A DNA stretch of 64,000 nucleotides from Liolophura sinensis (Eukaryota; Mollusca; Polyplacophora; Chitonida; Chitonidae), in the NCBI RefSeq assembly GCF_032854445.1, contig NC_088301.1, positions 36,009,187 to 36,073,186 on the forward strand, in the 5' to 3' direction. The notes under the pieces were generated by a model. That model saw only the letters and a list, made by a program, of their open reading frames with translations, searched no databases and was not told the origin of the DNA. Numbering within the stretch: the first letter of the stretch is position 1; each line of letters starts with the position of its first letter. Positions 33,323-54,154 of the stretch are shown here, in pieces. Both the position numbers and the translations under genes were made by a program.

Positions 33323-36300
33323 ATGCCTAACTCATTACGAAGGTATGGATATTTCCACTGCCACACTTGCAACGGCAGATGGGAGAGCTCTCACGTTTAT
33401 CTGCTGAGTAAAGACAGTAAGGTAAGGAAGTTTAAATTTATGTAGTATCCTCAGTAGGCCTATATTCTTTGGGATATGAATATGATCATAAATAAACGTT
33501 TTACGACTTCAATTTTAAACATGAAATACTGTTCCACGTATTACATGTCTATTCATCAAAATGACATCTCCAAACCGCTTTGGTTTTCACTAAGAGTAAA
33601 TTTAAAGTTGACTTGTTTATTTACAGTTTTTTTACTTTATCACTTCAGCCCAGTGAGAAGGTTAGGTCAAATGTAGATACAGTATGATCTAATGTGAATC
33701 CTTGGGACAACTGTATATATATAAAATGTGGCACTGGTCAAATTCAGATCAGTAATGTGTCTCACCATGGCCTGACTGTAAACGCAATGGGTCTGTCCCA
33801 CCCTGGCCCGTCTGCATAGGCAGGGGTGTGTCCCACCCTGACCCGACTGCAGACGCATTGGTGTGTCCCACCCTGGCCCGACATTATGTGCTGACAATTC
33901 GCGACTTTCCAGTTCAGCGCCTCCTAGCGGATGGTCGTACACGGACGACTGTCATGGCCGCGTATGGGGTCATCGGGCCGTCTCTAAGTTTTTTCTGTTA
34001 TCAGGCCAGTTTCATTCCAAAGCCGCAAGAAAATCAAGGTAAAGTGAATTAACAGGACAAACTGTTTATAATGATTCACTGAATGGTTGTGAGAAGGGTA
34101 TAGGACTTGAAATAGTACTGTTTACACAAAATACAACCAGCTAGCTTAGCCTCAACAACAACAACACAATTTACAATGTTCTAACCTTCGCAGTACTTTG
34201 GCGTTTGTAAGATGGAAAGTCCCTCCCGAGAACTGCTTTGTAGTGTAATACGCCTTACTTTAATCCCGTAGAGACTTGTTTATGTATGCACATGTTGTAA
34301 GCTTTTAAAACATAATAGGCCTATCAGCTGTAATTTAGTTTATGGATAGGTAGACTTATTCATTTAAATGTGAATGAATACATGTATGATTATATTCATT
34401 TTTCAATGATATTCTAATTTTGTTTAAACAGTTCGCCTAGAGCCATGAATTGCAAGAGAAAGAAACAAACTGTGGCTGAAGATATCAGTGATGCAAAAAC
34501 CAGAAAGGAGGACACTCGCCTTTATTGTTTATGTAAACAATTAGATGATCCTGATAGAACAATGATCCAGTGTGATTTTTGTGACGAATGGTTCCATCCT
34601 GCCTGTGTTGATCTGGAAGAGGGTGAAGTTAATGATGTTGGAAGATGGTACTGCCCACCATGTACAGATGTTATGGCACAAAATCCATCACTGTCGCGTA
34701 AAGGTATAGAAAACGGGGTCATTTTACTTCTACTTACTTTTGGGCACATTAATATTATATTGACTGTTTATTGTAATGACTTAATTGATCTGACAGTGTT
34801 AATATGTTAGGCTATTTTCAGTCAGCTGTTACAATCATATTTGTAAAGTAACACGTCAGGACAGAAAAAGTTAACCCAGTCATGTGGTAATTTGTCAAAA
34901 CTGCGTTTCAGGTTTTCTTGGGTTTCAAGGGAGAGTAGCACCGAAAGAGGGATGGGGAGAAGAATTTTTGTTGGAGGACATCGATGAGTCTGTCATTCAA
35001 GTAGAAACCAAAAGACATCGTGTTGAAGGCTGGAACCTGTTTCGAGAAGGTCGTGTTACTGGACTGAGCAGCAATAAAAACAGAAATTATGTATATTTCC
35101 GTAGTCAGTGTCAGGCATCCATGAGACAGCTGTCCTATAATGTGTTTATCTGTTTCAAGGGCAGTCGAAGGCTTAAGTGGTCAACCTGTTCGTGCCCTGC
35201 TGGAATCGATGGCCAGGGTAAGCATCTTGTGGCAACTTTGTATTGTTTGATAGATCTGTACAGACTAGGGATAAACAAAATCCCAGATGCTAAGACATGC
35301 ACACAAAAACTTCAAATGTGGCATGTCCGAAAACCTGTGACAGACGAACCACTGCTTTTTTCTGACATAAACTTTGTTAAGCATGACCCAGAGAGACCAG
35401 TAAAAGGGGACCTTGGTTGTAGTGTGAAGCAACATAATCCTGTACCTGAGTTTGCAAGCACTGTGACACAGGTAAAAATTCAGAAACTTGTTAACTTATA
35501 TGATTCCAATTGTATTATGTTACCAGTCATAGACACCATCAGGACCAATCAATGTATTCCAGTGTTGCCTAAACAGCAAATGGATGGAAGCCTTCATTCT
35601 GAACTTTTTGAATTAATGAATGGAACAGAATATAACTTTAGTGTGGATGATTACACAACTAAATTGACTGCATCAGAGAAACAACACTACAGTTCCATTG
35701 TGGAAGTAAATATTGAAACATCTAGATGTATTGAAAAGAAAACTCGATTACAGAGTAAGAGTAAGTTTTGGTTTGACCAGCGCCAACATAGAATAACGGC
35801 ATCCAACTTTGGGACTTTCTGTAGACTAAAATCATGTACTAATCCAATAACAACTTTCAATAGAAAGCGGAAGTTTTTCACGTGCAGAAGTGTCCGCCAT
35901 GGTGTAGATTATGAGTCAGCTGCATTTGCCAAGTATAGTGAAGTCCAACCCTGTGAAAGTTGCTCAGCAGGTTTAATAATAAATCCCAAAATACCATATT
36001 TAGGTGTTAGTCCTGATAAAATTGTGCTTACCAACAGTGAATTGAAACTTGTAGAAGTTAAGTGCCCTTACAGTGTGTTTCAAAAGAAAGTCAAAATTTG
36101 TCAACAAATTAAGGAAAATAATTTCTACTTAAAATATGTTGACGGAGAGGTGAAACTGTCTGAGACTCATGATTATTTTTATCAAATTCAAGGTCAGCTT
36201 AATATTACTGGTGTAAATATTTGTGATATGGTGGTGTTTGTGCCTCCAGATGATATTGTTATTGTTTCCATTAAAAAAAGACAAACACTTTTTTGAAAAC

Positions 36301-39300
36301 AAAATGCTCCCAAAGCTATCTGATATTTATTTCCATCATTTGTTGCCTAGCTTTGTTGATCGCCTCCAATACACTCATTTGTAGAAATATTAAGCATTTT
36401 CAATTGTCATGTCAGAATTACATATTGTGGAGCAATGTTTTTCAAGAATGTCCAGTCATCATTTACTCTATTTACATGCACATGTGTATGACTGGAGAAA
36501 TATGCCTACATACCATAGATTCGTTAATCACATTTCCATTTGTTATTTTCCCATGATACTAATAATGAAGCATTTTCAATCAAATTGTAAGAGAGTTTGA
36601 AGGAACTTCATCTATTATATAGAGCAAGTGATGATACATGTATATGTCTCCTTTGAGTATGATGAGTTTCCTTAAATAAAAGTAAAGCCAAGTGAAACAA
36701 AATTTGTTCGCAGTGTCACATGATATGTAACAATTCCATCCCATGCCAATCCTGAATTGTTGTAATTCACTTCTTGAAGCCAGCCAATGTATTATGAAAT
36801 AATTTTTTTTTACTTATTATCAACTTACATTTAGTTGATTGATAATGCTGTACTTAAGAATTTTTTACTCATATGAGGGCTCGTGAAGTGTATGGTTGAA
36901 GAAAACCATAGTTTATTGGAGTAAACCATCGACCTTCGCCAAGTACCTGATAACCTACTGACTCGAAGCTGCAGTTAAAGCCCTTTGATGTTCGAGCAAA
37001 CGAGACGCAATTCTAATCTTTAAAACCAGTTTACTTTAGACAAAGTGCTAACTGATCTAAGTTACTAACCTTTAAATAATGTACCTGTAAAGTTTGACAA
37101 ATGGCCACACACAAGCCAAACTTTCTCTATCATTGGACACAAAGATATAGGAACAATGTTCCGAATGATCTCAAATTCCTTAACTTTTCTCACTGCTTGT
37201 TCTACATGAACTCGCACAGCTGCAACTCCCCTTGAGAATTTTAACTGTTCATCTGTGAACTGCTGTTGTCCATGCAGAAATGTTGGAATAATAAGAGAAG
37301 CCCCCCTTCTTTCAACATCTTCGCGAATGTCAAATCCCCGATCAACCATGAGGCTATCACCATCTTCCAGTAAGTCTAGGAGCCCACAGTGACGAATAAT
37401 CTTTTTGTCAGAACATCTCCCAGCATATAATGGCGAAATAAAAGTAAGTTGACCTACCGGAGAAATTGCAATGAGTCCCTTCGCAGTGTTGTGGTGTTTG
37501 TAAGATGAGAAAGTCTCTCTTTGACAGTCAGATGCAGATGGTTGTTCAATGAATAGTTCTGTACAGTCCACAATAGCACGAGTTGTTGAATAATGTTCTC
37601 TAAAGCATGCTGGCATGGTCTTTCGCACTTGTTTAGCTTTTGGCCAGATTGGTAATGATCGAAATCTATCTGCTAAAAAAATAATCCATGTGTTGACAAT
37701 TTTAGATACATGACCCTCAGATATGCTATACAGATCACCAATTAACCTTTCTTGTAGTCCTTTACGAAGACGCACTAGTGTTATGAAGAGCTCTTCCATT
37801 GGTGAGAGTGATCTAGATGGTCCACGTTTCTTTAATAAGTCATACGGTGTACCAGATGATGTGTTCTCTGTGCCCACATAATATAAAAAATTACATTCTG
37901 GCTGAAGAAACTGAAAAAAACATGATAAAGATATATAAGACTGAAATCCTGTATAGTACTTTATGTCACTGTCAGAATTGCAAAATCTGAGCAAAGTAAA
38001 CTTTTCTTCATAGCGCAGTGTCATCAGATTTAAATTGGTCTGTAAAACAGAGGCTTTATCAGGTGAGACGCTAGGTTCATAATCTTCTAAACTGTCATCC
38101 CCACTACTGCTGCTCTCCAAATATCTTCTCAAAGTTGTAGGATATATAGTATACATAGCCCCATCAGTGTATTGGCGGGAATAAGAATGCTCCTCCACAG
38201 AAAACTGTTGAAGACCTGTAGCTGCTTTGTTCTCCTTGTTCTCGGATGCTACTGAGGAAATCTGTTTCTTAATCTTTCTCCTAGAATGCTGAGTGGAGGT
38301 GCCTTTACACCAATGAAAAACTGTTGGAATGGCATCCTTCACAAGACGACGTCTTATGCCTTGGTGTTTTGGATAACAATCCTCTGTAAAATGTAAAGAG
38401 CACACACAAGTGTGTCTGTTTATGGCAAAATCTTTACCAATGTCTCTCCTCATGTTCACAATCCATTTTTTTACCAAATCTTTGTCCGAAGGGAAACTGT
38501 GAAATGACAAATGTTTACAGCTCTCAAGTCTAGTGTCACTTGAACACAAAGGCACACAGCAATGATGAGGCATTTTAGATTCTTTCTGGAAGCAAACAGA
38601 AGAATAAGTTGTCAGTATAAGTGTAGATCTAGCATCCCTTCGTCTCTTTTATACCATTCTTTATGTACAAGAACATGAATAAGGTTTATTAAGTCCAAAA
38701 TATTTCAAAAACATTGAATACCAATAGTAAACTATACATTTTAACAGGCCTATATTTAGCTGTGAACCTAAATGAACACCTAGATTGCACATGCATTCAA
38801 AACATGCTAAATGGATATATTTTTCTTAGAGCAATTTATGAACTAGTCAGAAATTACTACCTATGTATTTTATGCACTATGCATTACAAAGTAACCTTAA
38901 AATTTAAATTCAAAATTCCCCAACCAAGACTACATTGGTTAATGTAATTCTGAAATCAAGCAACACATTCATGAGATTTACGGAAGCAAACAGCTCCAGA
39001 TATGTTGGATTGATCATGAGCGACATGTGCCACAGTTCACGCAGACATTAGAATTGTTGTCAATCCTCTGCCCTCTGTAAATGCCTATGAGCTAAAGTTT
39101 TCACGGCAATCATGTCTGTTCGTGAAATAATCCCATTTTCCTAGTGTATAGGATTTATTACCTTATCAAGATGGTGGTAGACCCTGAAAGTGTTACTGCC
39201 ATAGTCCATGTTTGTCAAGGTCAATATAAGATTAAGTTAGATAATGTGTAAGAGCGTGAGGTTCGCCAGGGAAGACGAAATTACTGTAGACAGCGGTAAA

Positions 39301-40676: not shown

Positions 40677-42714
40677 CCCTTTGAACCCTGGCCATTATGA
40701 CAACATAGACCCCCCCCCCCCACCCTGAGCTCCCCGTTAATTAACAATGGGCTTTTCAGAACAAACCACACATCTGTTATTTGTAGTAGCATGAGGGGCT
40801 CTCTGAACTTCATGTTGCCCATAGTCAATGAGGCGGTTCTCAATGTCTTGGCGGGGTTGTGGTGTTGGATACGTACGAAAGTCGCCAACTAGATTATGAC
40901 ATAGCTTCTCAATGAACATGTGGAATGTAAGCTGCCTGTGGCCCTGAGGCATATGGGGGTGATAAAAACCTAATATTACATAGGCATTATATGCAGCCCA
41001 CATAAAGAACTTCATCATCAAACGCCGAGGCTATTTATAATGCCGTCGACTTTTATATAGTTTGGTCATTTGGTCGTTTTTGTCGATGCCCCCCATAAAC
41101 TGATTGTAGGCTTGAACTGCTTTGGGGCATTTTACTGGCACCTTTTTGTGTTCTGTGCCATCATACCTGTTCACATGTACTTCAGGTTCAGAAATAAATT
41201 TTGATGACACAAAATAAATTGGCTTTTTGTCACACCAAACTATTGCTCCAACAGTTCCGTTATACACAATTTCCGAATCCCCACAGTTCATGTCTTTTTT
41301 CCTTTTGATCAAAGATTTGGGGAAGTGTTTCTGGTTTGTCATAACAGTCCCGACAAGTTGTGTCCCCATATGTTCAACTAAATACTGGCACAGATTTACA
41401 CTGGTGTAATAACGATCTACATAAACACAGTAGTTTTGATCCCTGACTGGTTCTATAAGCCTTACAACTAAATTTCCAGTAACGCCGAGGTTGGGGATGC
41501 TTTCAGAATCATCTCTTCTACCTGTGTACACTTCGGCATTGGAAATGTAACCGTTTGTGCTGTCACACACCAGAAATGTTTTGATGCCCCACTTAATCGG
41601 TTTGTCCTTTGTATACTGTTTTATTGACAATGCGTTCTTTGTTGGCACCATGCCTTCGTCAAGTGAGAGGTTGCTATCAGGTTTGTAATAACGTTGGAAT
41701 CGTTCAAGAAGATATTTGAAAACCGGCCAGGACTTGTAAATTTTGTCTGATTTATCTAACTCTGGATCCTCTTCATCAACACAGTGTAACAGTGTCCAAA
41801 TTGCCAAAAATCTGTCCTGCGGAAACACTTGCGAGAAACCAGGTGTCACAGTTAGAAAATTGTCCTTCATTCGCCAATATTGTTCATAACGGTATTTATG
41901 GATCAGCATCTCCATGGCAACATGGCAACCAAAAAATGCTTTCATTTCAGTTACATTGACGGGTAAAATTCTGAGCATAATAATGCTTTGGTCTTTTTGT
42001 CTGTTGTCTGACTGCCCCTTTGTTTGTCTCATCGACTAGAAGTTGCCACAGTACGTCGAATAAAGACAAAAACTCACTTGGCAAGCTGTCAGCATTTATA
42101 GAATCTGGGATGTTTTTTACTCCTGTCGGTTCATTAGGCTGAAACTGTTTGTCCACAAAACCTGATACATTAGTCCATTTCATTTGGTTGTCATTCACTG
42201 AATTTCGAACATTTCGCCTCACCTGTCCCACAGGCACACGCGCGTTACCTGTACCACGTCTATCACCATCACCTGTCCCTCCAATTCCATCACTGTCTGC
42301 ATCTGAAGAATCGTTGTTCACAACGTTGTTGTTGTAACTACAACTGTCCGTGTCATTTTCCGATTCAAAATCACTTTCATGTCCGTAATCACTCTCATTT
42401 GGGTCACTTTCGCTATCGGACAACACCATCTGTAGCGCTTGCTCAGCAGTAACACGTGCGCGTCTCATATCCGCAAAAAAGCTCAAACTCGACAAAAAAC
42501 GTACAGTGTGTTGCCTATCTACGATAACACATCTGTTAGAACTTCCGCCACACATCGAGGCCAAAAGCTATATGTAAAATGCAAGCTGATTAGCTAAAAA
42601 CTCTGCCACAACTCATGTTTATTTATAGGCTTATGTCAAATGACGGTAAACCGGCCTTTTGGGGATAGACATTATAGAAGCATGCCGCAAAACCGGCCTC
42701 TCGGGTTCTATGGG
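40677..42714 (-). mobile_element. Degenerate piggyBac transposon with TTAA target duplication
   Basis: A 2.04-kb element flanked by TTAA at 40673-40676 and 42715-42718, the exclusive piggyBac target. Its ends start CCCTTTGAACCC and (reverse strand) CCCATAGAACCC, imperfect inverted repeats beginning with the family's CCC. It encodes a broken PGBD-like transposase on the minus strand. It sits 0.65 kb after ZAR1-like copy 2. Confidence 0.88.
40737..42564 (-). pseudogene. piggyBac (PGBD4-like) transposase, broken by a frameshift and a nonsense codon
   Basis: Three open segments cover a piggyBac transposase: an acidic N-terminal part (42564 down to 41947), the catalytic part (42032 to 41031) and the C-terminal part (41021 to 40737). 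The catalytic Asp residues are in recognisable places: DEGMVP, YVDRYYTS and MGGIDKNDQ. Two breaks are visible: a frameshift in the overlap of segments 1 and 2, around 41960-42000, and a TAG at 41031-41033 that separates segments 2 and 3 in the same frame. The C-terminal Cys-rich domain is also cut short after CVVC. Not functional as read; could be an immobile fossil or a non-autonomous copy. Confidence 0.88.
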
Positions 42715-44552: not shown

Positions 44553-47500
44553 ATGGGATCCGGAGCTTCCACTGCCGGTAGGGTACCACGGTCTCGGTCC
44601 TCGTCAAGGTCTGTGTCTTCAGCAGAGGGTATCCATCACAGGCGGGTAAGGCTTAACTTATAGACATGCCATAACGTTATCCCTTATTGTCTAATAGGCG
44701 TCCCCTCATAATGTAGCAATAACTAAGACACACTACTAATTTATCTCAATTTAAACATATTCAAAACGGCTACAAATGACATAACCGTATGGTTTGTATC
44801 TCGTGGAAAAATAAGCCGTGTTGTGCCATTGAAAACAGCATTTGCCTTATGCCTCAATGTGAGTTATTCATCCCCCACTAACTGTTTGTGACCAATCCAT
44901 CAGTTTAATCGCCAGATCGAAGAGCCACATTGTCCAACATCATGCAATGTATATCTAATTTAAGTATCCTCCACTATAAAATGGTCTACTTCCGATGTTC
45001 AAGAAGAACATGTTACTATAAGTAACCAGTTGGAAGAAATATTACTCAGATAATTGAGATAAATTTAATTAGCATTCCGAGCTAGCAGACTTTTTCTTAG
45101 ATTCTCGCATATGCTGACCTGCATGTAAAGTAGATGACGGTCATGCATTGACCAAATATGAGCATAAGCAACTATTACTTAAAATTGGACAGGTTTTTTA
45201 ATGTATTGAGTGCTACATGAGATCAACATCTTGGCCAATACCACATATGTCTATTTTCATGCGTATAATGGTTAACGTGAAATGTACAGTAATTTTGTAA
45301 TTAAGGCAATTCTACTTAAGCATAACAGAGGGTAATGTATGAAATCGAGTCCGAATTTAGTGTGTGAATGTTGATATTTATAGGTGTGTACTGTATTTTC
45401 TTTTAGCTCTGACTCAGACGATTAATACATCTGTGCTTAGCCTTATTGTTTCGGGGGTTGTTATTTGTCGGTGTTGTTGGCTTTTGAATAACCCCTATAT
45501 AATACCATTTAACAACTGCCACATAAAAAGGATGCATAATTTGTACACATTTCCTCTTCGTACACTAAAGCATATACCGTCAACGGGTTACAGCCAGCCT
45601 CGGATAGGTCCAACCGGTCCCTCCTCCCATACCTTTTTCACTCCCCCTACTTTGTACACCACAGCTGAACATGTTCGGTTTAATTTAAGACGAATAGCAC
45701 AGGCCATTCATGTAACCATGGTGGTGTTTGGACGCAAGGTTATGCCCTGTGTCCAACAAAAGTTCTTTATCACGGGCGTGTATTAGGAAAGCGACATTCC
45801 ACATCCAATAAACTAAGGTTGTTTATAACACACGGATGACACATTCTTCTTGCGGGGCGAAAACGCCCTGTTATTACTTGGCCGACGCAACTTTCATGAC
45901 TAACTACATAAAGGTATTTTCAAGGACATGCACCCACCGTCTGTTCAGCTTGAGAAACGAGTAACGGATTTGTTGTCAATAGGTGACAGTGCCTGTTTAT
46001 ATGTAATATCTTTAGTTTTATTGACCATGAGGGCAAAGTTGACAAATGTAACTTTCAGCTTTCAGCGTTACAATCTGATTAAAATACCATTCGCGCGCTG
46101 CATATACAGACTAAAGTGGTGTGCGTATTGACTTGTACATTTTATACCATCGCCGGTGTTTGTTAAATTACAACACAGGACATTCCAATTCATGCACCCT
46201 CAATTGTCTACGGACATATTACCAAGAATCTGTACGCTAAAGTGGTATGAGTAAAACATGAAATGACAAGCTACACGTATGCAGCTATACTCGGTAAAGC
46301 AGAACAAATGAGGAGGTATATATACTAACAACAATGTGACTCTATGCCAATATGTGTTCACCTTTGAATTTCTTGTAAAACTATCAGTTTGTTAACCATT
46401 ATTGTTCGCCACAAAAGAAAGAAAACAGGTAATTAGATGAGATACAAGAAAGAAAGAAAGAAAGAAAGAGATGCCTCATGAACGATTTAAATCGTATGTG
46501 TATGTGTAAATGACTTATATCAAATAAGACTAAATGGCATGTCCAATTGTTTCAGACATCACGAGCCTCTTCCGACGGATCCGACCAAATCAACAAACAT
46601 GCTCCGCCACCATTTCCTCCGAAGATGCAGAAAGATCAGATCTATGATCCTTCAAAATACATGGATGTGGACAAGCACGCCATGCACGTATGTCAAATAA
46701 AAGTCTAGTTATCGATTTACAGGCACCACTAGCTCCATAATTATAGAGACAGCCTTCAGTCACTGATTATAGGATTCGGTCACTTTATAGGCAATTATAA
46801 TGAACGTGATTTAGTCATTTCCAAAGGTCTTTGTTCAATAATCGTAATTGTATAGGAATTCACATGGTACTATACTATCCAAAAAAAGAAACGCATAGGT
46901 GTTTTGTTTCATTTTAAAATGAAATAAATACATTTTGTCTTCATTTCATGAGCAAAATGTGTTTTAATATTGTTAATAGTCACAGTTAGCACACATTTTA
47001 TTCCTCAAAACATTTCTTGGTTGAAAATGTTGAGTTTGGAGGCCGTTTTTGGAAGAAGTAAAAAATACAGCACCACACTGCATCACGTGCAGTCTTACAC
47101 GCCGAACTTACGCATGGAAAGCATGCAGTGTGTGACTATAAAACCGCAACTTCGGGCCGGAAATCGGCGTCTTTCAAGTGGTGTTTTCAAGCTGATTCAA
47201 CATGCCACGTCTTGACACTGTCACAAGAAATATTGCCATTGGACGACTTCAAGCTGGAGAGTCCCAATCGTCCATTCCTAGGCGTCTACACGTCAGCCAG
47301 AGCACGATTTCACGGCTTGCTGCCCGCTACAACAATACTGGGACAACAAATGACCGTCGGCGTTCAGGTCGACCACGTGTCACTACAGCAGCCCAAGATC
47401 GCTACATGAGGGTCCTCCATTTGCGTGACCGTTGTGCTACAGCTGAAAGCACAGCAGCCAGCATACCGGGACTGAGGAGGATATCAGGTCAGACAGTGCG

Positions 47501-50500
47501 GAACAGGCTGAGGGAACATGGACTGAGAGCCAGGAGGCCCTATGTTGGGATCGTGCTGCGTCCTCACCATCGCACAAATCGCCTCCGATGGTGTAACAAC
47601 GTGACTGCATGGAATCTACGCAACTGGCGACGCATTTGGTTCAGTGATGAGTCCAGATTCCTATTGCAGAGACGTGATGGTAGAAACCGGGTTTACAGAC
47701 GTGCTCACGAACGTTATGCCCCTAACTGCGTACGCCAAGTGGACAGATTTGGTGGAGGGAGTGTGATGATGTGGGCAGCAATATCGTATACTGGTCGTAC
47801 AAATCTTGTCCACGTTCAGGGAAATCTTACGGCCGTACGCTACCGAGACACCATCCTGCAGCCACACCTCTTACCTGTCATTGACGTTCAGCGGGAGTTG
47901 TTCCAGCAGGACAACGCCAGACCGCACACGGCACGTGTCACAAGGGACTTCCTCGCCAAAAACAATGTAAATGTGCTACCCTGGCCGTCCCGTTCCCCGG
48001 ATCATAACCCAATTGAGCATCTGTGGGATGAACTTGATCGACGTCTACGCCAACGTCAACCTCAACCCCAAACGCTTCAAGAGCAAGTTGCATGTTTGCA
48101 GGAGGAGTGGCAGAACATTCCCCAGGCCTCTATCCAGCGTCCCATCCGGTCCATGACAAGGCGTGTCAGAACTGTTATTCGTGCCCGTGGTGGTCACAAC
48201 AGATACTGACATTCCACTCAAGTGGGAGACTCATTGTGAGTGTCTTACCTCAAGTTGATGACCTTGTTGTCTAGATATGGACCCTTCCTTAATCTGTGTA
48301 AAAAAATATTTGCAGAATACCAATTCTTATTTAGTTATGCATAATTGAAAAGACTGCATCACCTCCGCAAAAAACCGGGTTATGCGTTTCTTTTTTTGGA
48401 TAGTATATACTATTTATCATTAATTTTCTCCACAAATGCCTGTAGATAATGGCCATGTTTATTTAGACGCTAAAAGCAACTGTTTCGTCATTGAACACAT
48501 TCCTGTTACATTTCAGAAGCACGTCGTGACGTTTATTCATAAAAAAATGAAGATATATGTTCATATATAGGAAACAAGGAAACAAGTCGGATGTTTACGT
48601 TGTAATGTTGTGGATATTTTCCATAATCAAACATAGTTCAGTAAACATTATACTGTGTTTATATTATAAGAGTAAAAAGCTGATTAACATGTAAAAACAT
48701 TTACCATAGCAAACATAACCCTAAATACACTTCCTGTCAATATTCTCTAAATAATGAAATAGGACCTCTTTGACTAGATTGTGGACTATTTGAGTAACTT
48801 GCCAGGTGGCGAAACGTTAAAGAAAACCACGCTTACAAAACATAATTGTAACTCCAACAACTATACTAGAAAGAATTCGAGGAATGTGTAAATTAACCAA
48901 TGCCATTTGCCAAAATAAGAAATTAGCTCTTTCTCTCTGATTTTCCAGATACCCAAATCAGTTCTGCGCGGAACCTTTTCCGATCTACTCGATGCAGTTA
49001 TACAAGGCCCTTGGACAGAAATGGCTAAACTCCGGGCCATATTTCGATGGCTCACATCAATCGACGCCTACAATCTTGTAATCAACGAAACTCCCCCCAC
49101 GTATTCCCCTCTGGAATATTTTAGAAAGATACAAGAAAACAAAGGCAATCACGCCCATCTTTTGTCTGGATTATGTCAGTAAGTCATGCGAAATGTAAAA
49201 TACAAACAATCATAGATGAACAAAGTGTAAGCAAGTTGTTTATAGATCGTGTTTATTTATTTGATTGTTGTTTTACGCCGTACTCAAGAATATTTCACTT
49301 ATATGACGGGGGCCAGCATTATGGGAGGAGGAAACCGGGCAGAGCCCGAGGGAAACCTACGACCATCCACAGGCTGCTGTCAGGCCTTCTTCAAACGTAT
49401 GGCCATAGAGAAAGTCAGCATGAGCTGGATTTGAGCTCAAAGCGATCGAATTGATGAAAGGACCTTGGGTCATTACGCCAGGGTGGCGTCCTAACCCCCT
49501 CGGCCACGGAGGCCCCCTAGATCAGATCTAAAATCCGAAAGTTAGTAGTTGTGTTCAATGACAGTCGTACTAATATTTTTTGATTTTTTGCAGTGGAACA
49601 CGGGTGTGGAAACTACACGTAGATTTATCATGTTTCGAGAGCAGTTTATGCGCAGAGATCCCAAATTAGTGTTTCGAATTTCAAAACAGAGCGCTGGTAT
49701 CTCACACTATAAATAGTACATTTACTTACTCATTTATCATGACGAAATAAGGACTACATTTAGATGATTTTTCAGACAACCTATTCATTTAATTTATTGT
49801 TCCTTTCAGAATGGCTGGAATACCATGTGTCATCATCAGCGGTATGAACAAAAGTGCAGCTTACCAAGTTGGAAAACCATTAGATCGGAAGTCCATGGGT
49901 GCCCAGTGGAACGCAGTATACGTGGAAGGAGAATGGAGGTTGATTGATTCCTTCTGGGCATGCTCGTGTGTGGTTGGAAAGAGAAGTGGCGAGTGGACTC
50001 TGATGGATGAGGACGGACAGGTTGTGGAAGCCAGCGAAGAGGAAGATGAAGGTTTTACTCAGCATAGGATCAACGAGTTTTACTTTCTTACTGATCCAGA
50101 AAAACTGATTTGGACTCATTTTCCCGATGACCCTAACTGGCAGTTGTTAAAAAGACCCATCTCGAAAGCTGAGTTTGAAGAGCATTTTTATGTGCGAGAG
50201 CGTTTCTACCACCTGGATATGGGCACCACACAAGAGAGTCAGATGAAGTGCATTCTCACAACTAAAAAGGGCCAGGCAGATATCCAGTTCTGCTTACCCC
50301 AGGTTAAGAGCAAAAATTTTAGGTTTAAATACATGTTGTATCTTTCCCGGGCAGCACTGAAAGAAAACAAGGCGAATTTTTTCTTGGACCGGTTTATATT
50401 CTTCGAACAGCGTTCTGATCTACTTCTCTTAGCACTGAGGTTTCCCATCAAAGGAACGTTCAAGTTGGATCTATTCGGGGTTGATACCGCGGACAGTGAT

Positions 50501-52364
50501 GTGTTTGATCTGGTATGTACCTACCTCATCCAGTGTCCAGAACCACAGGCGAACTGTTTTCCCTTACCAGACGTGCCACCTTTAGGATGGGGACCATTGT
50601 ATGTCACCTCTCAGGCTGGTCTTAAGCCAAAGACCCATCAGACGGGAGTGATTAACACAAAAGACGGTAACGTAGAAATCAAATTCGGCGTCGACCGAAA
50701 GGTGAAGGTTCACCAAGCTCTGCTTCACGCAGTCATTGACCAAGCCACTCTTAATAATTACTCAGTGACCAGAATGGAGAACGGTGAAGTGATTGTGAAT
50801 GTCAGGTTACCCATGGGCGGAGAATATGCGCTAAAGCTGTATGCCCAGGAAGAGGGCGAGGACGGAGAAGCGCCAAACGTATGTAATTACCTAATAAGAT
50901 GTGATAAAGACACGCTAAACAATATACCCTTTCCTAACGTGCCTACCGGGAGTCTGGGTAAACAGCACATGGGCGACAAACTCGGAGTAAAGGCACTCAG
51001 TCATCCAGTGGGTTGTGTTGAGACGAAGGACGGTCGACTGCCAATGACATTTGAAGCTCCAGAAAATGTGGAACTCATGTGTGAAATCCACAAGGTCAGC
51101 TCTGACGGAAATGTCATCAAAATGGCCGTCCAACCTAAAGTCCACAATGGTGTATGGTCCTTCGACGTGGATCTCCCAGTAACAGGAGAATACTCCCTCA
51201 ATATATTCGCTAAAACTGAAGGAGATGAGGACAGAATTTACAATGTCCACTCATATCTCATAAACTCCAAAGGTCGAAAAAATGCGGAACTGGACCTGGA
51301 AGAGGAGACAACAACCGCCTGTAACCCTGTACCCGTTGAGACTGTGGAGACCGCAGACAACGAACTCTGGATACCGGCACCAGAAGGCTATGAAAACGTT
51401 GTGGCTGCTCTCCACAGGAAAAATGCCAGTGACCCGCCAACTATCCATCAAATATCGTTCCTTAAACAAGATGACCAAGACTTCATCCGCGTCAAGCTGC
51501 CAGAGTACGGTGACTATGTTATGAACTTGTACAACTCGAAAGAAAATGGCAATGTTGAAAATATCGCCAAATATCAGATAAACAGAAAGCCGCCTGCAGA
51601 TCTTTTCCAAACTAATATTCAAACGATCATGGATGCAGTCGAAGGAGGCGAAGAGGATGATCCCGAAGGCAATACCATTAAAGCGGAATCTCCCGTTAGA
51701 GTTCCTTCGCCGATGTCATCCGTTTCAAGCAAAGGCAGTTCAGAGGACAATCTCGATGGTAACTATTTTCTAACGTTTTTTTAATTCACGGTTAAGGGTG
51801 AATAAGTCACACGTTCGATGATCTCGTCAGGTCTGTACTATTTGGCTATATTAATTATTTCAATTTTACCGTATTTCAAAGTTCATCATCATCTTGGTCA
51901 TGGGTTTTATAATGCGTCTGTTATAGTTGTAGCTGTGAATTTCTCGCCTAGGAATAATATACAGCATTTTGTTTCTAGTTGTTGTGTATGTTGTTAACTT
52001 ATTAATGCGATATGATGTAAAATGACATTTACATCTTGGGCTGCAAATATCTCGATTTCATGAGTTTTTCTGCACGTTGTCTGTGAAAAACGTGACAGAA
52101 TTTTTTAACATTTACTTTTTCGTAAATTATTTAGATTTTTCTCAAACACTTACTTTTAGACGCTAAAAAGAAGACAGCAAAAAAGCAGCTCGAGAATGCC
52201 ATGGAGACCAAAGACATTGGACGGTTGCGAAAAGCGTTGGCGGCCTGCACTGAGGCAAACGTCGGGGAAACGGAATTGTTAGAGAAAGCCAATCGACTGC
52301 TCCAAGTCCTGGAAGCCAAGAAAGGTTTGCTCCTTCAGATGTCTGTCTGTGTGTGCGTGCGTGC

Positions 52365-52408
<44 letters not shown>

Positions 52409-54154
52409 TGCTTGGATTGTCTTAGAATGAAATGGTCGATGGTTAATGAGAAGTACACTATCTTTGAACAATGTGCACTGTACTCTCTACACTGTATTCT
52501 CGCTAGTAGGCAATAAAGTTGTTGATATATCCCCTTTAACTCAATATTTAGTATCCCAACAAGTTATATACCAAAACTTCAATTAATCCAACTAAACAAT
52601 GAAATAGTATGACTGCTAGGTTTTCTCTCCTATTGTTCCTAAACAGTTTTAATGGAAGCTTCGGCGAAAAGGAATCTGAAGATGTTGGATGATGCCATTA
52701 GCAATGCAAAGAATGCCAACTTTGACCACATGTTGGATCTACAGATCGCCATGGCAAAGAAAACTACGTGATCAACTGGCGAGGATAGAGAAACTCAGGC
52801 ATCAAGTCCTGTCTATGGAACAGAAGACGATAGCAGAGATCAAGTCTTTTTCTAGTCCACCGGATGGTGTTTTCCAGACTATGCAGGCAGCCTTCCTGCT
52901 TTTGGGTCACACGAAGAAAGACGTCAAGGTGACCGTGGTTATGAATTTGTTTTTAAGGCAAAAAACTCTGCTAGTGGACTATGCTAGCTGGAGACCCGGC
53001 CTCTTTCCATCGTTTCCATATTACTATTTATTAAATGTAATGACAATATATCATTCTGAGGTGGCCAGTGATGTCTAATAAATTGCTGTAACTCAGTAAC
53101 TGAGGTAAATTAATAAAAAAAAATGGTTTTCACCTGTTACGTGTGACCAGCTGACAACTTTCTACTACCTGCTTACTGTCTTCGCTGTTCTTCTTTGACT
53201 CTTCATGGTGTAGTCTTTTATATCAATTAAACAGGTATCAGTTAGCTGTAAAATACCATTTCATTCGGTGTCAATTCAAAAAGGTAGTTATGTATAGGTG
53301 ATATTACTTGTGTGTACATTTTGAAATGTTAATCTATTAAACTAGAGGTAATTTAGCCAATTCTCTCATTCAAAGGCCATATTCTTTTTGTGTTAAGTAC
53401 TCTTGTCCTTTAGAAGGTATGTCTGCTGTTCTTATTACCTGTACAAAAATTAATGTAAGACTAGTTCCCCATTTATATTTATAACCTTCGCTCTACAGGA
53501 ATGGCCTATGGTAGTAGCACTTATGTCCAAGACTGGCAAAGAGTCCCTGATGCGAAAAGTGTCCATGTTTGAGCCACAAACAACTTATTTAGATTATGCC
53601 CGCAAAGCGAAAGAAACCGTCGCAGAATTTAGTTTGGAACGCATTCGGAACGTCAACTCAGGGGCTGCCACGTTTTATGTCTGGGTAAGTTACGGTCACT
53701 GATGATGTTAAATCTGCAAAGAAGCCCTGGTTGTCAGCATATTCACATTATTCATGTTAGCTGTTATATTGCTGCTTTGGCATTAATTCATCTTAATGAT
53801 CTTTGCCTTTGAAATACCGTAATAATCTAGAACCACCTACACTTATTAATTTGGAATGTCCATAATTTTCAGTTAGCATTTACAAGTTTTTACCATTAGC
53901 CTCAAATCAAAGAAGAAATATATGAAATACGCATAACCAGGAAGTACAGATATACAGATACAGACATTTTCGTCCAAAACATCCTGTGTAAGGGACAGAG
54001 ATCTGTGAATTGTAACGTATAAAGGTGTATCGTGCGGTCAAACCTTTGAAAAATTTATGACGTCCTTATACTTTCATTCAAACAGGTTACGGGAATGACA
54101 GAGGAGGTAGAGTCCACAGGAGGCGCAGGCATGTCTCCATCGAAAAGAAAATGA
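44553..54154 (+). CDS. KY/hillarin-type transglutaminase-like protein with a C-terminal dynein-stalk-like region (8 exons; frameshift in exon 6)
   Basis: Exons 44553-44645, 46556-46687, 48949-49178, 49810-51758, 52160-52324, 52647-52928, 53499-53684 and 54086-54154 give about 1034 residues once one extra base is allowed for. N-terminus MGSGAST fits N-myristoylation (Gly2, Ser6). Residues ~76-230 are a transglutaminase-like domain (MAKLRAIFRWLTSIDA; AQWNAVYVEGEWRLIDSFW), followed by about four ~115-residue KY-type Ig-like repeats ending near residue 760 (each closing like GEYxLxLYA). The catalytic Cys and His appear absent; Asp198 (LIDSFW) remains. Residues ~800-1015 are helical, ending in IAEIKSFSSPPDGV...AAFLLLG...EWP and TFYVWVTGM, like the dynein stalk head. 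In exon 6 an A4 run at 52760-52763 shifts the frame and creates TGA at 52769; the next exon's phase fits only if one base is removed. KY proteins are cytoskeletal scaffolds; the role here is inferred. Confidence 0.82.
46448..46469. repeat. (AAAG)n microsatellite
   Basis: About five AAAG units, 90 bp before exon 2 of the KY/dynein-stalk gene. Confidence 0.85.
46875..48403 (+). mobile_element. Intact Tc1-like transposon in intron 2 of the KY/dynein-stalk gene
   Basis: A 1529-bp element with 23-bp perfect inverted repeats starting ctatccaaaaaaagaaacgc, flanked by TA at 46873-46874 and 48404-48405. It encodes a full-length transposase with no defects and lies in the sense direction of the host gene. 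Perfect ends and an open gene suggest a recent arrival. Confidence 0.92.
47202..48209 (+). CDS. Tc1-like transposase, DD34E, apparently intact
   Basis: 335 codons, no intron. N-terminal paired-type helix-turn-helix DNA-binding region (residues ~1-110; SIPRRLHVSQSTISRLAARY and a GRPR hook RRRSGRPRV at 52-60). The catalytic triad is D149 (WFSDESRF), D237 (FQQDNARPHTA) and E272 (SPDHNPIEHLWDEL), with exactly 34 residues between the last two, the Tc1 signature DD34E. It catalyses cut-and-paste at TA dinucleotides. The length is typical of the family. The ATG at 47202 is the first in frame. Confidence 0.95.
   Translation: MPRLDTVTRNIAIGRLQAGESQSSIPRRLHVSQSTISRLAARYNNTGTTNDRRRSGRPRVTTAAQDRYMRVLHLRDRCATAESTAASIPGLRRISGQTVRNRLREHGLRARRPYVGIVLRPHHRTNRLRWCNNVTAWNLRNWRRIWFSDESRFLLQRRDGRNRVYRRAHERYAPNCVRQVDRFGGGSVMMWAAISYTGRTNLVHVQGNLTAVRYRDTILQPHLLPVIDVQRELFQQDNARPHTARVTRDFLAKNNVNVLPWPSRSPDHNPIEHLWDELDRRLRQRQPQPQTLQEQVACLQEEWQNIPQASIQRPIRSMTRRVRTVIRARGGHNRY
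49252..49517 (-). repeat. Full-length SINE in intron 3 of the KY/dynein-stalk gene (antisense)
   Basis: Reverse complement of the 8741-9009 family: tail 'tttatttatttgattg' at the left, 3' motif gccgtactcaagaatatttc, body, and tRNA-like head ending 'ggccacggaggcccc' at the right. Complete head and tail. Boundaries ±5 bp. Confidence 0.85.
52349..52402. repeat. (GCGT)n(GT)n microsatellite next to a splice donor
   Basis: About 54 bp of alternating GCGT then pure GT units starting 25 bp after the donor of exon 5 (52324/52325) of the KY/dynein-stalk gene. Confidence 0.92.

Follow-up and report, generated by a model that had tools for sequence, protein, structure and literature searches.

A family of dynein stalk-head-like domains, several of them fused to KY-type proteins, in a chiton genome

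The KY-type gene in the window

The window, by which we mean the whole stretch of 64,000 nucleotides analyzed here (C7:36009187-36073186 of a genome of 609 Mb from the chiton Liolophura sinensis), carries on its plus strand a gene of the KY/hillarin (kyphoscoliosis peptidase) type. The first part of its transglutaminase-like domain is encoded by an exon at 48949-49178 (...YFRKIQENKGNHAHLLSGLCQ), with splice sites read from the sequence, and the remainder by a large exon at 49810-51758, also bounded by splice sites, which continues into three Ig-like_KY stretches and an acidic linker. Joined together, these two exons matched Pfam Transglut_core (E=1.1e-8), and the large exon matched PF23265 Ig-like_KY in all three stretches (E=1.1e-71). 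The window protein therefore has both the transglutaminase-like core and the Ig-like_KY domains of KY/hillarin proteins, and differs from them in carrying a dynein-type head at its C-terminus.

This C-terminal part is encoded by four further plus-strand exons with AG/GT borders, all phase-compatible with the large KY exon. The exon at 52160-52324 encodes a first helical-hairpin repeat (LENAMETKDIGRLRKALAACTEANVGETELLEKANRLLQVLEAKK). The next, at 52647-52928, encodes a second helical repeat and helices H1-H2 of the stalk head (AEIKSFSSPPDGV...FLLLGH), as assigned by homology and AF2, and contains an internal one-base frameshift that is discussed below. Helices H3-H6 (EWPMVV...FYVW) lie in the exon at 53499-53684, which matches dynein by profile through the terminal Trp and is preceded by an intron at the same position as in the paralogues, while the last exon, at 54086-54154, adds 22 residues and a stop. 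The dynein-like motifs that a preliminary description had placed in this region are present, and the splice sites needed to join them to the KY exons are usable.

By eye, the transglutaminase-like domain shows GNHAH where the Cys motif is expected and GAQWN where NHAWN would stand, with Asp kept in LIDSFW; residue equivalence was likewise assigned by eye. On this reading the Cys-His-Asp triad of an active transglutaminase or peptidase is incomplete, a further difference from KY/hillarin proteins, and because Cys and His are missing by position, the domain in the window copy is likely a pseudoenzyme. Mammalian KY is not known to act on any endogenous substrate; a role in protein interaction and binding to filamin C have been described (PMC6078408). 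In oyster, KY shows co-expression with filamins, talin and Futsch, a microtubule protein (PMC3348941).

Several other open reading frames surround the KY exons. One at 44553-44660 (+), starting with MGSGASTAGRVPRSRSSSRSVSS (MGSGAS), might be a first, N-myristoylated exon of the KY gene; the putative membrane anchor of the preliminary description would depend on this candidate start. By eye, we also noted an open Tc1/mariner-like transposase reading frame of 337 codons at 47196-48209 (+), upstream of the KY exons and probably intronic, piggyBac-like transposase reading frames at 41031-42567 (-), a THAP and DDE-type transposase-like reading frame at 37065-38648 (-), and PHD finger-like followed by YqaJ-like exonuclease-like reading frames at 34418-36296 (+).

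Relation to dynein stalk heads and the gene family

For searches the two frame pieces of exon 52647-52928 were joined. In a single-sequence phmmer search of the PDB, the top match of the window domain was DNAH6 (E=2.2e-4 over residues 37-215), and the better matches were mostly dyneins. The preliminary description had proposed a search against the Pfam dynein stalk family (MT, PF12777); a match was seen there (E=0.0044), yet at 16.5 bits against a cut-off of 24 it falls short, and the homology is carried instead by a profile of nine sequences from this genome. All 60 PDB matches of the nine-domain profile were dynein heavy chains (best E=3.3e-11), as were all 45 matches of a head-only profile of 112 columns (best E=1.4e-9), and the reversed profile gave no PDB match at E up to 1. 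One PDB chain among these is labeled Radial spoke head protein 9 homolog; we counted it as a mislabeled dynein heavy chain because of its length of 4583 residues and its match at the stalk position of DNAH10. A hand-written consensus query also gave weak matches to the genome's own dynein loci (C614, C1:14.96M).

The nearest relatives by profile are the axonemal heavy chain 8glv_Fm, DNAH6 and DNAH2. With them the chiton heads share the H1-H6 order and the positions of E-I/V-K/R-x-x-x-x-PP, LLG, W and the terminal F..W (E from 1e-9 to 3e-11). Residue numbers used here are those of mouse dynein; the mouse sequence taken for the numbering agrees with eight residues cited in the papers. Core residues of the head are kept: E3304 is found in all nine copies and the first Pro of PP in eight of them, along with the LLG-type motif, the Trp and the final F..W. 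On the sequence evidence the homology of the window head to the dynein stalk head is settled, as the preliminary description had supposed. An AF2 model of the 58-residue first half of the head gave helix, PP break and helix at a pLDDT of 81, with no Foldseek match for this half-domain; the second half modeled alone reached a pLDDT of 49 and was uninformative. Pfam matches to TEDC1 and YbfN were sub-threshold noise, and a search of a viral collection found no relatives.

The genome holds nine such head domains (window, L028, L030, L032, L033, L035, L037, L039 and L042), each encoded by two exons with a common intron position, so that the family comprises at least nine copies, that is, the window gene and at least eight sister genes. 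In a tree they separate from four dyneins with support of 100/99. Of the nine, six (window, L030, L035, L037, L039 and L042) show KY homology upstream of the head, on the same strand and within about 6 kb, which makes the fusion a gene family. The joining of a stalk-head-like domain to a KY-type protein, first proposed for the window gene, is thus shown at the DNA level at six loci by sequence. L035 and L037 pair with each other in the KY tree and in the head tree alike, and so do L039 and L042, as expected if genes were duplicated in already fused form. At L028, L032 and L033, helical repeats comparable to those of the window precede the head, and no KY match was found in 16-18 kb of upstream DNA. 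The window head is closest to that of L028, which suggests repeated gain or loss of the KY partner, unless a KY part was overlooked at L028.

Many other KY genes are present in the genome, and no head was found with them; in searches with four protein queries the same nine loci were the only strong matches. At C10:14.75-15.89 Mb, KY-type (Ig-like_KY) genes form a large tandem cluster in which no dynein-type head was detected. At C8:20826500-20875100, three head genes (L033, L039 and L042), one of them without detected KY, lie inside 50 kb. About 9 kb upstream of the L028 head there is a sub-threshold EF-hand-like reading frame (L027 9395-9670, C7:32.625 Mb); this candidate suggests that the head may sit on further scaffolds too.

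The papers we searched contain no description of a KY and dynein-head architecture. In a mussel, an enrichment of the Pfam MT term in gill is accounted for by dyneins. Proteins of this kind may already be listed in UniProt or InterPro under a stalk-domain name that was assigned automatically.

Stalk helices, motor parts and microtubule-contact residues

Chiton heads differ from dynein in several respects beyond forming their own family in the tree. In the window protein the final Trp stands about 22 residues from the end, and in two paralogues similarly short candidate last exons, of 19 and 31 residues, lie downstream of L044 and L032; with tails this short there is no returning stalk helix CC2. 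We found no antiparallel CC1-CC2 coiled coil, and the paired helices of a full stalk are missing: the helices before the head are short hairpin-like repeats, and judged by its sequence the domain is a head with short helical repeats. Any similarity of these upstream helices to CC1 is conjectural. There is also no AAA+ ring, since exons 48949-54154 yield only Transglut_core, Ig-like_KY and the head, and the gene ends past the head. In dynein, a change of stalk registry shifts CC1 and H1 upon binding (PMC6629372). The absence of CC2 implies that a registry switch of the dynein type could not operate in the KY-head protein. The alignment additionally suggests that two loops, H2-H3 and H3-H4, carry insertions that dynein heads do not have.

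Microtubules are contacted by dynein through helices H1, H3 and H6, and the contact residues named include K3298, K3299, R3306, R3342 and R3382, among others (PMC6125590). The positions of K3299 and R3382, which make electrostatic contacts, are non-basic in all nine chiton heads, and that of R3306 is basic in seven; the basic H1/H6 contact residues are not retained as a set. Comparing these losses with the complete retention of E3304 indicates stronger conservation of the fold core than of the binding face. The family also has conserved residues of its own (TG..SLKRR, GAAxFYxW), and several members carry extra K/R around H3-H4 (TGKESLKRR), where the conserved KRR aligns to H4.

Possible roles and alternative readings

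We consider it probable that these proteins are cytoskeletal, non-motor linkers or docking modules of the KY/hillarin family. The N-terminal transglutaminase-like domain, lacking the catalytic Cys and His, and the three Ig-like domains after it would serve as a scaffold for protein binding, and the C-terminal short helical repeats with the divergent stalk head would form a docking tip. Lacking both an AAA+ ring and CC2, such a protein would have neither a sliding-coil switch nor force generation, and the head would only hold statically. The head may hold the microtubule or axoneme lattice through altered contacts, or it may have some other helical or cytoskeletal protein as its partner. Two observations weigh against this reading: all nine heads lack two of the electrostatic microtubule contacts, and the assembled window copy is frameshifted ahead of its head.

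What the head would hold divides this reading further. The head may by now serve protein-protein interaction and have given up its contact with tubulin, a reading to which we give somewhat less than an even chance. In line with such a change, all nine copies have lost contact residues, family-specific residues are conserved and CC2 is missing, but no alternative partner is known and the case is built by inference. Alternatively, the head may still bind microtubules or axonemal doublets directly, which would make the protein a crosslinker of microtubules to filamin and actin, close to what the preliminary description inferred. This is a special case of the linker reading, and a possible though doubtful one. 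The dynein-like order and core of H1-H6, the basic residue at the R3306 position in seven heads and the added K/R around H3-H4 could all serve direct binding; however, two of the named contact positions, K3299 and R3382, are non-basic throughout (PMC6125590), and the conserved KRR aligns to H4 rather than to any of the three contacting helices.

A separate question is whether the window copy itself is a decaying pseudogene with its head cut off. Within exon 52647-52928 the reading changes frame by one base between ...AMAKK and LRDQL.... At 52760-52763 (+), four A in a row, one base over frame, are followed by TGA at 52769-52771, so that the protein as assembled ends before the head, while the paralogous exons examined read openly across the matching site and L028 aligns there without a gap to the window sequence in its frame-shifted joining. 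Decay nevertheless seems unlikely to us, since every other exon is open and all splice sites are intact. A single surplus A in a run of A is a typical assembly error, which also counts against decay; the extra base could be such an error or a recent lesion. The Liolophura japonica assembly is HiFi-read-based (PMC11068029). Conclusions at the level of the family are unaffected by the frameshift. The heads of L028 and L037 have open frames. Finally, that the resemblance to dynein is a chance likeness of helical sequence is highly improbable: the single-sequence Pfam score under the curated cut-off speaks for it, but it is refuted by the dynein-only profile matches, the empty reversed control and the top rank of DNAH6 already in the phmmer search.

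A further possibility within the linker reading, which we hold less likely than not, is that animals possess a multi-gene family of stalk heads without motors, which through KY-type proteins would anchor microtubules or axonemes to scaffolds of filamin and actin. The common view is that the stalk head of dynein occurs only within dynein motors. The family, with at least nine copies free of a motor and KY scaffolds next to six of them, shows that the head is able to move as a module. It also provides a natural experiment separating the head residues needed for folding from those needed for gripping microtubules, and it is a candidate for connecting microtubules with the actin/filamin system, where KY works.
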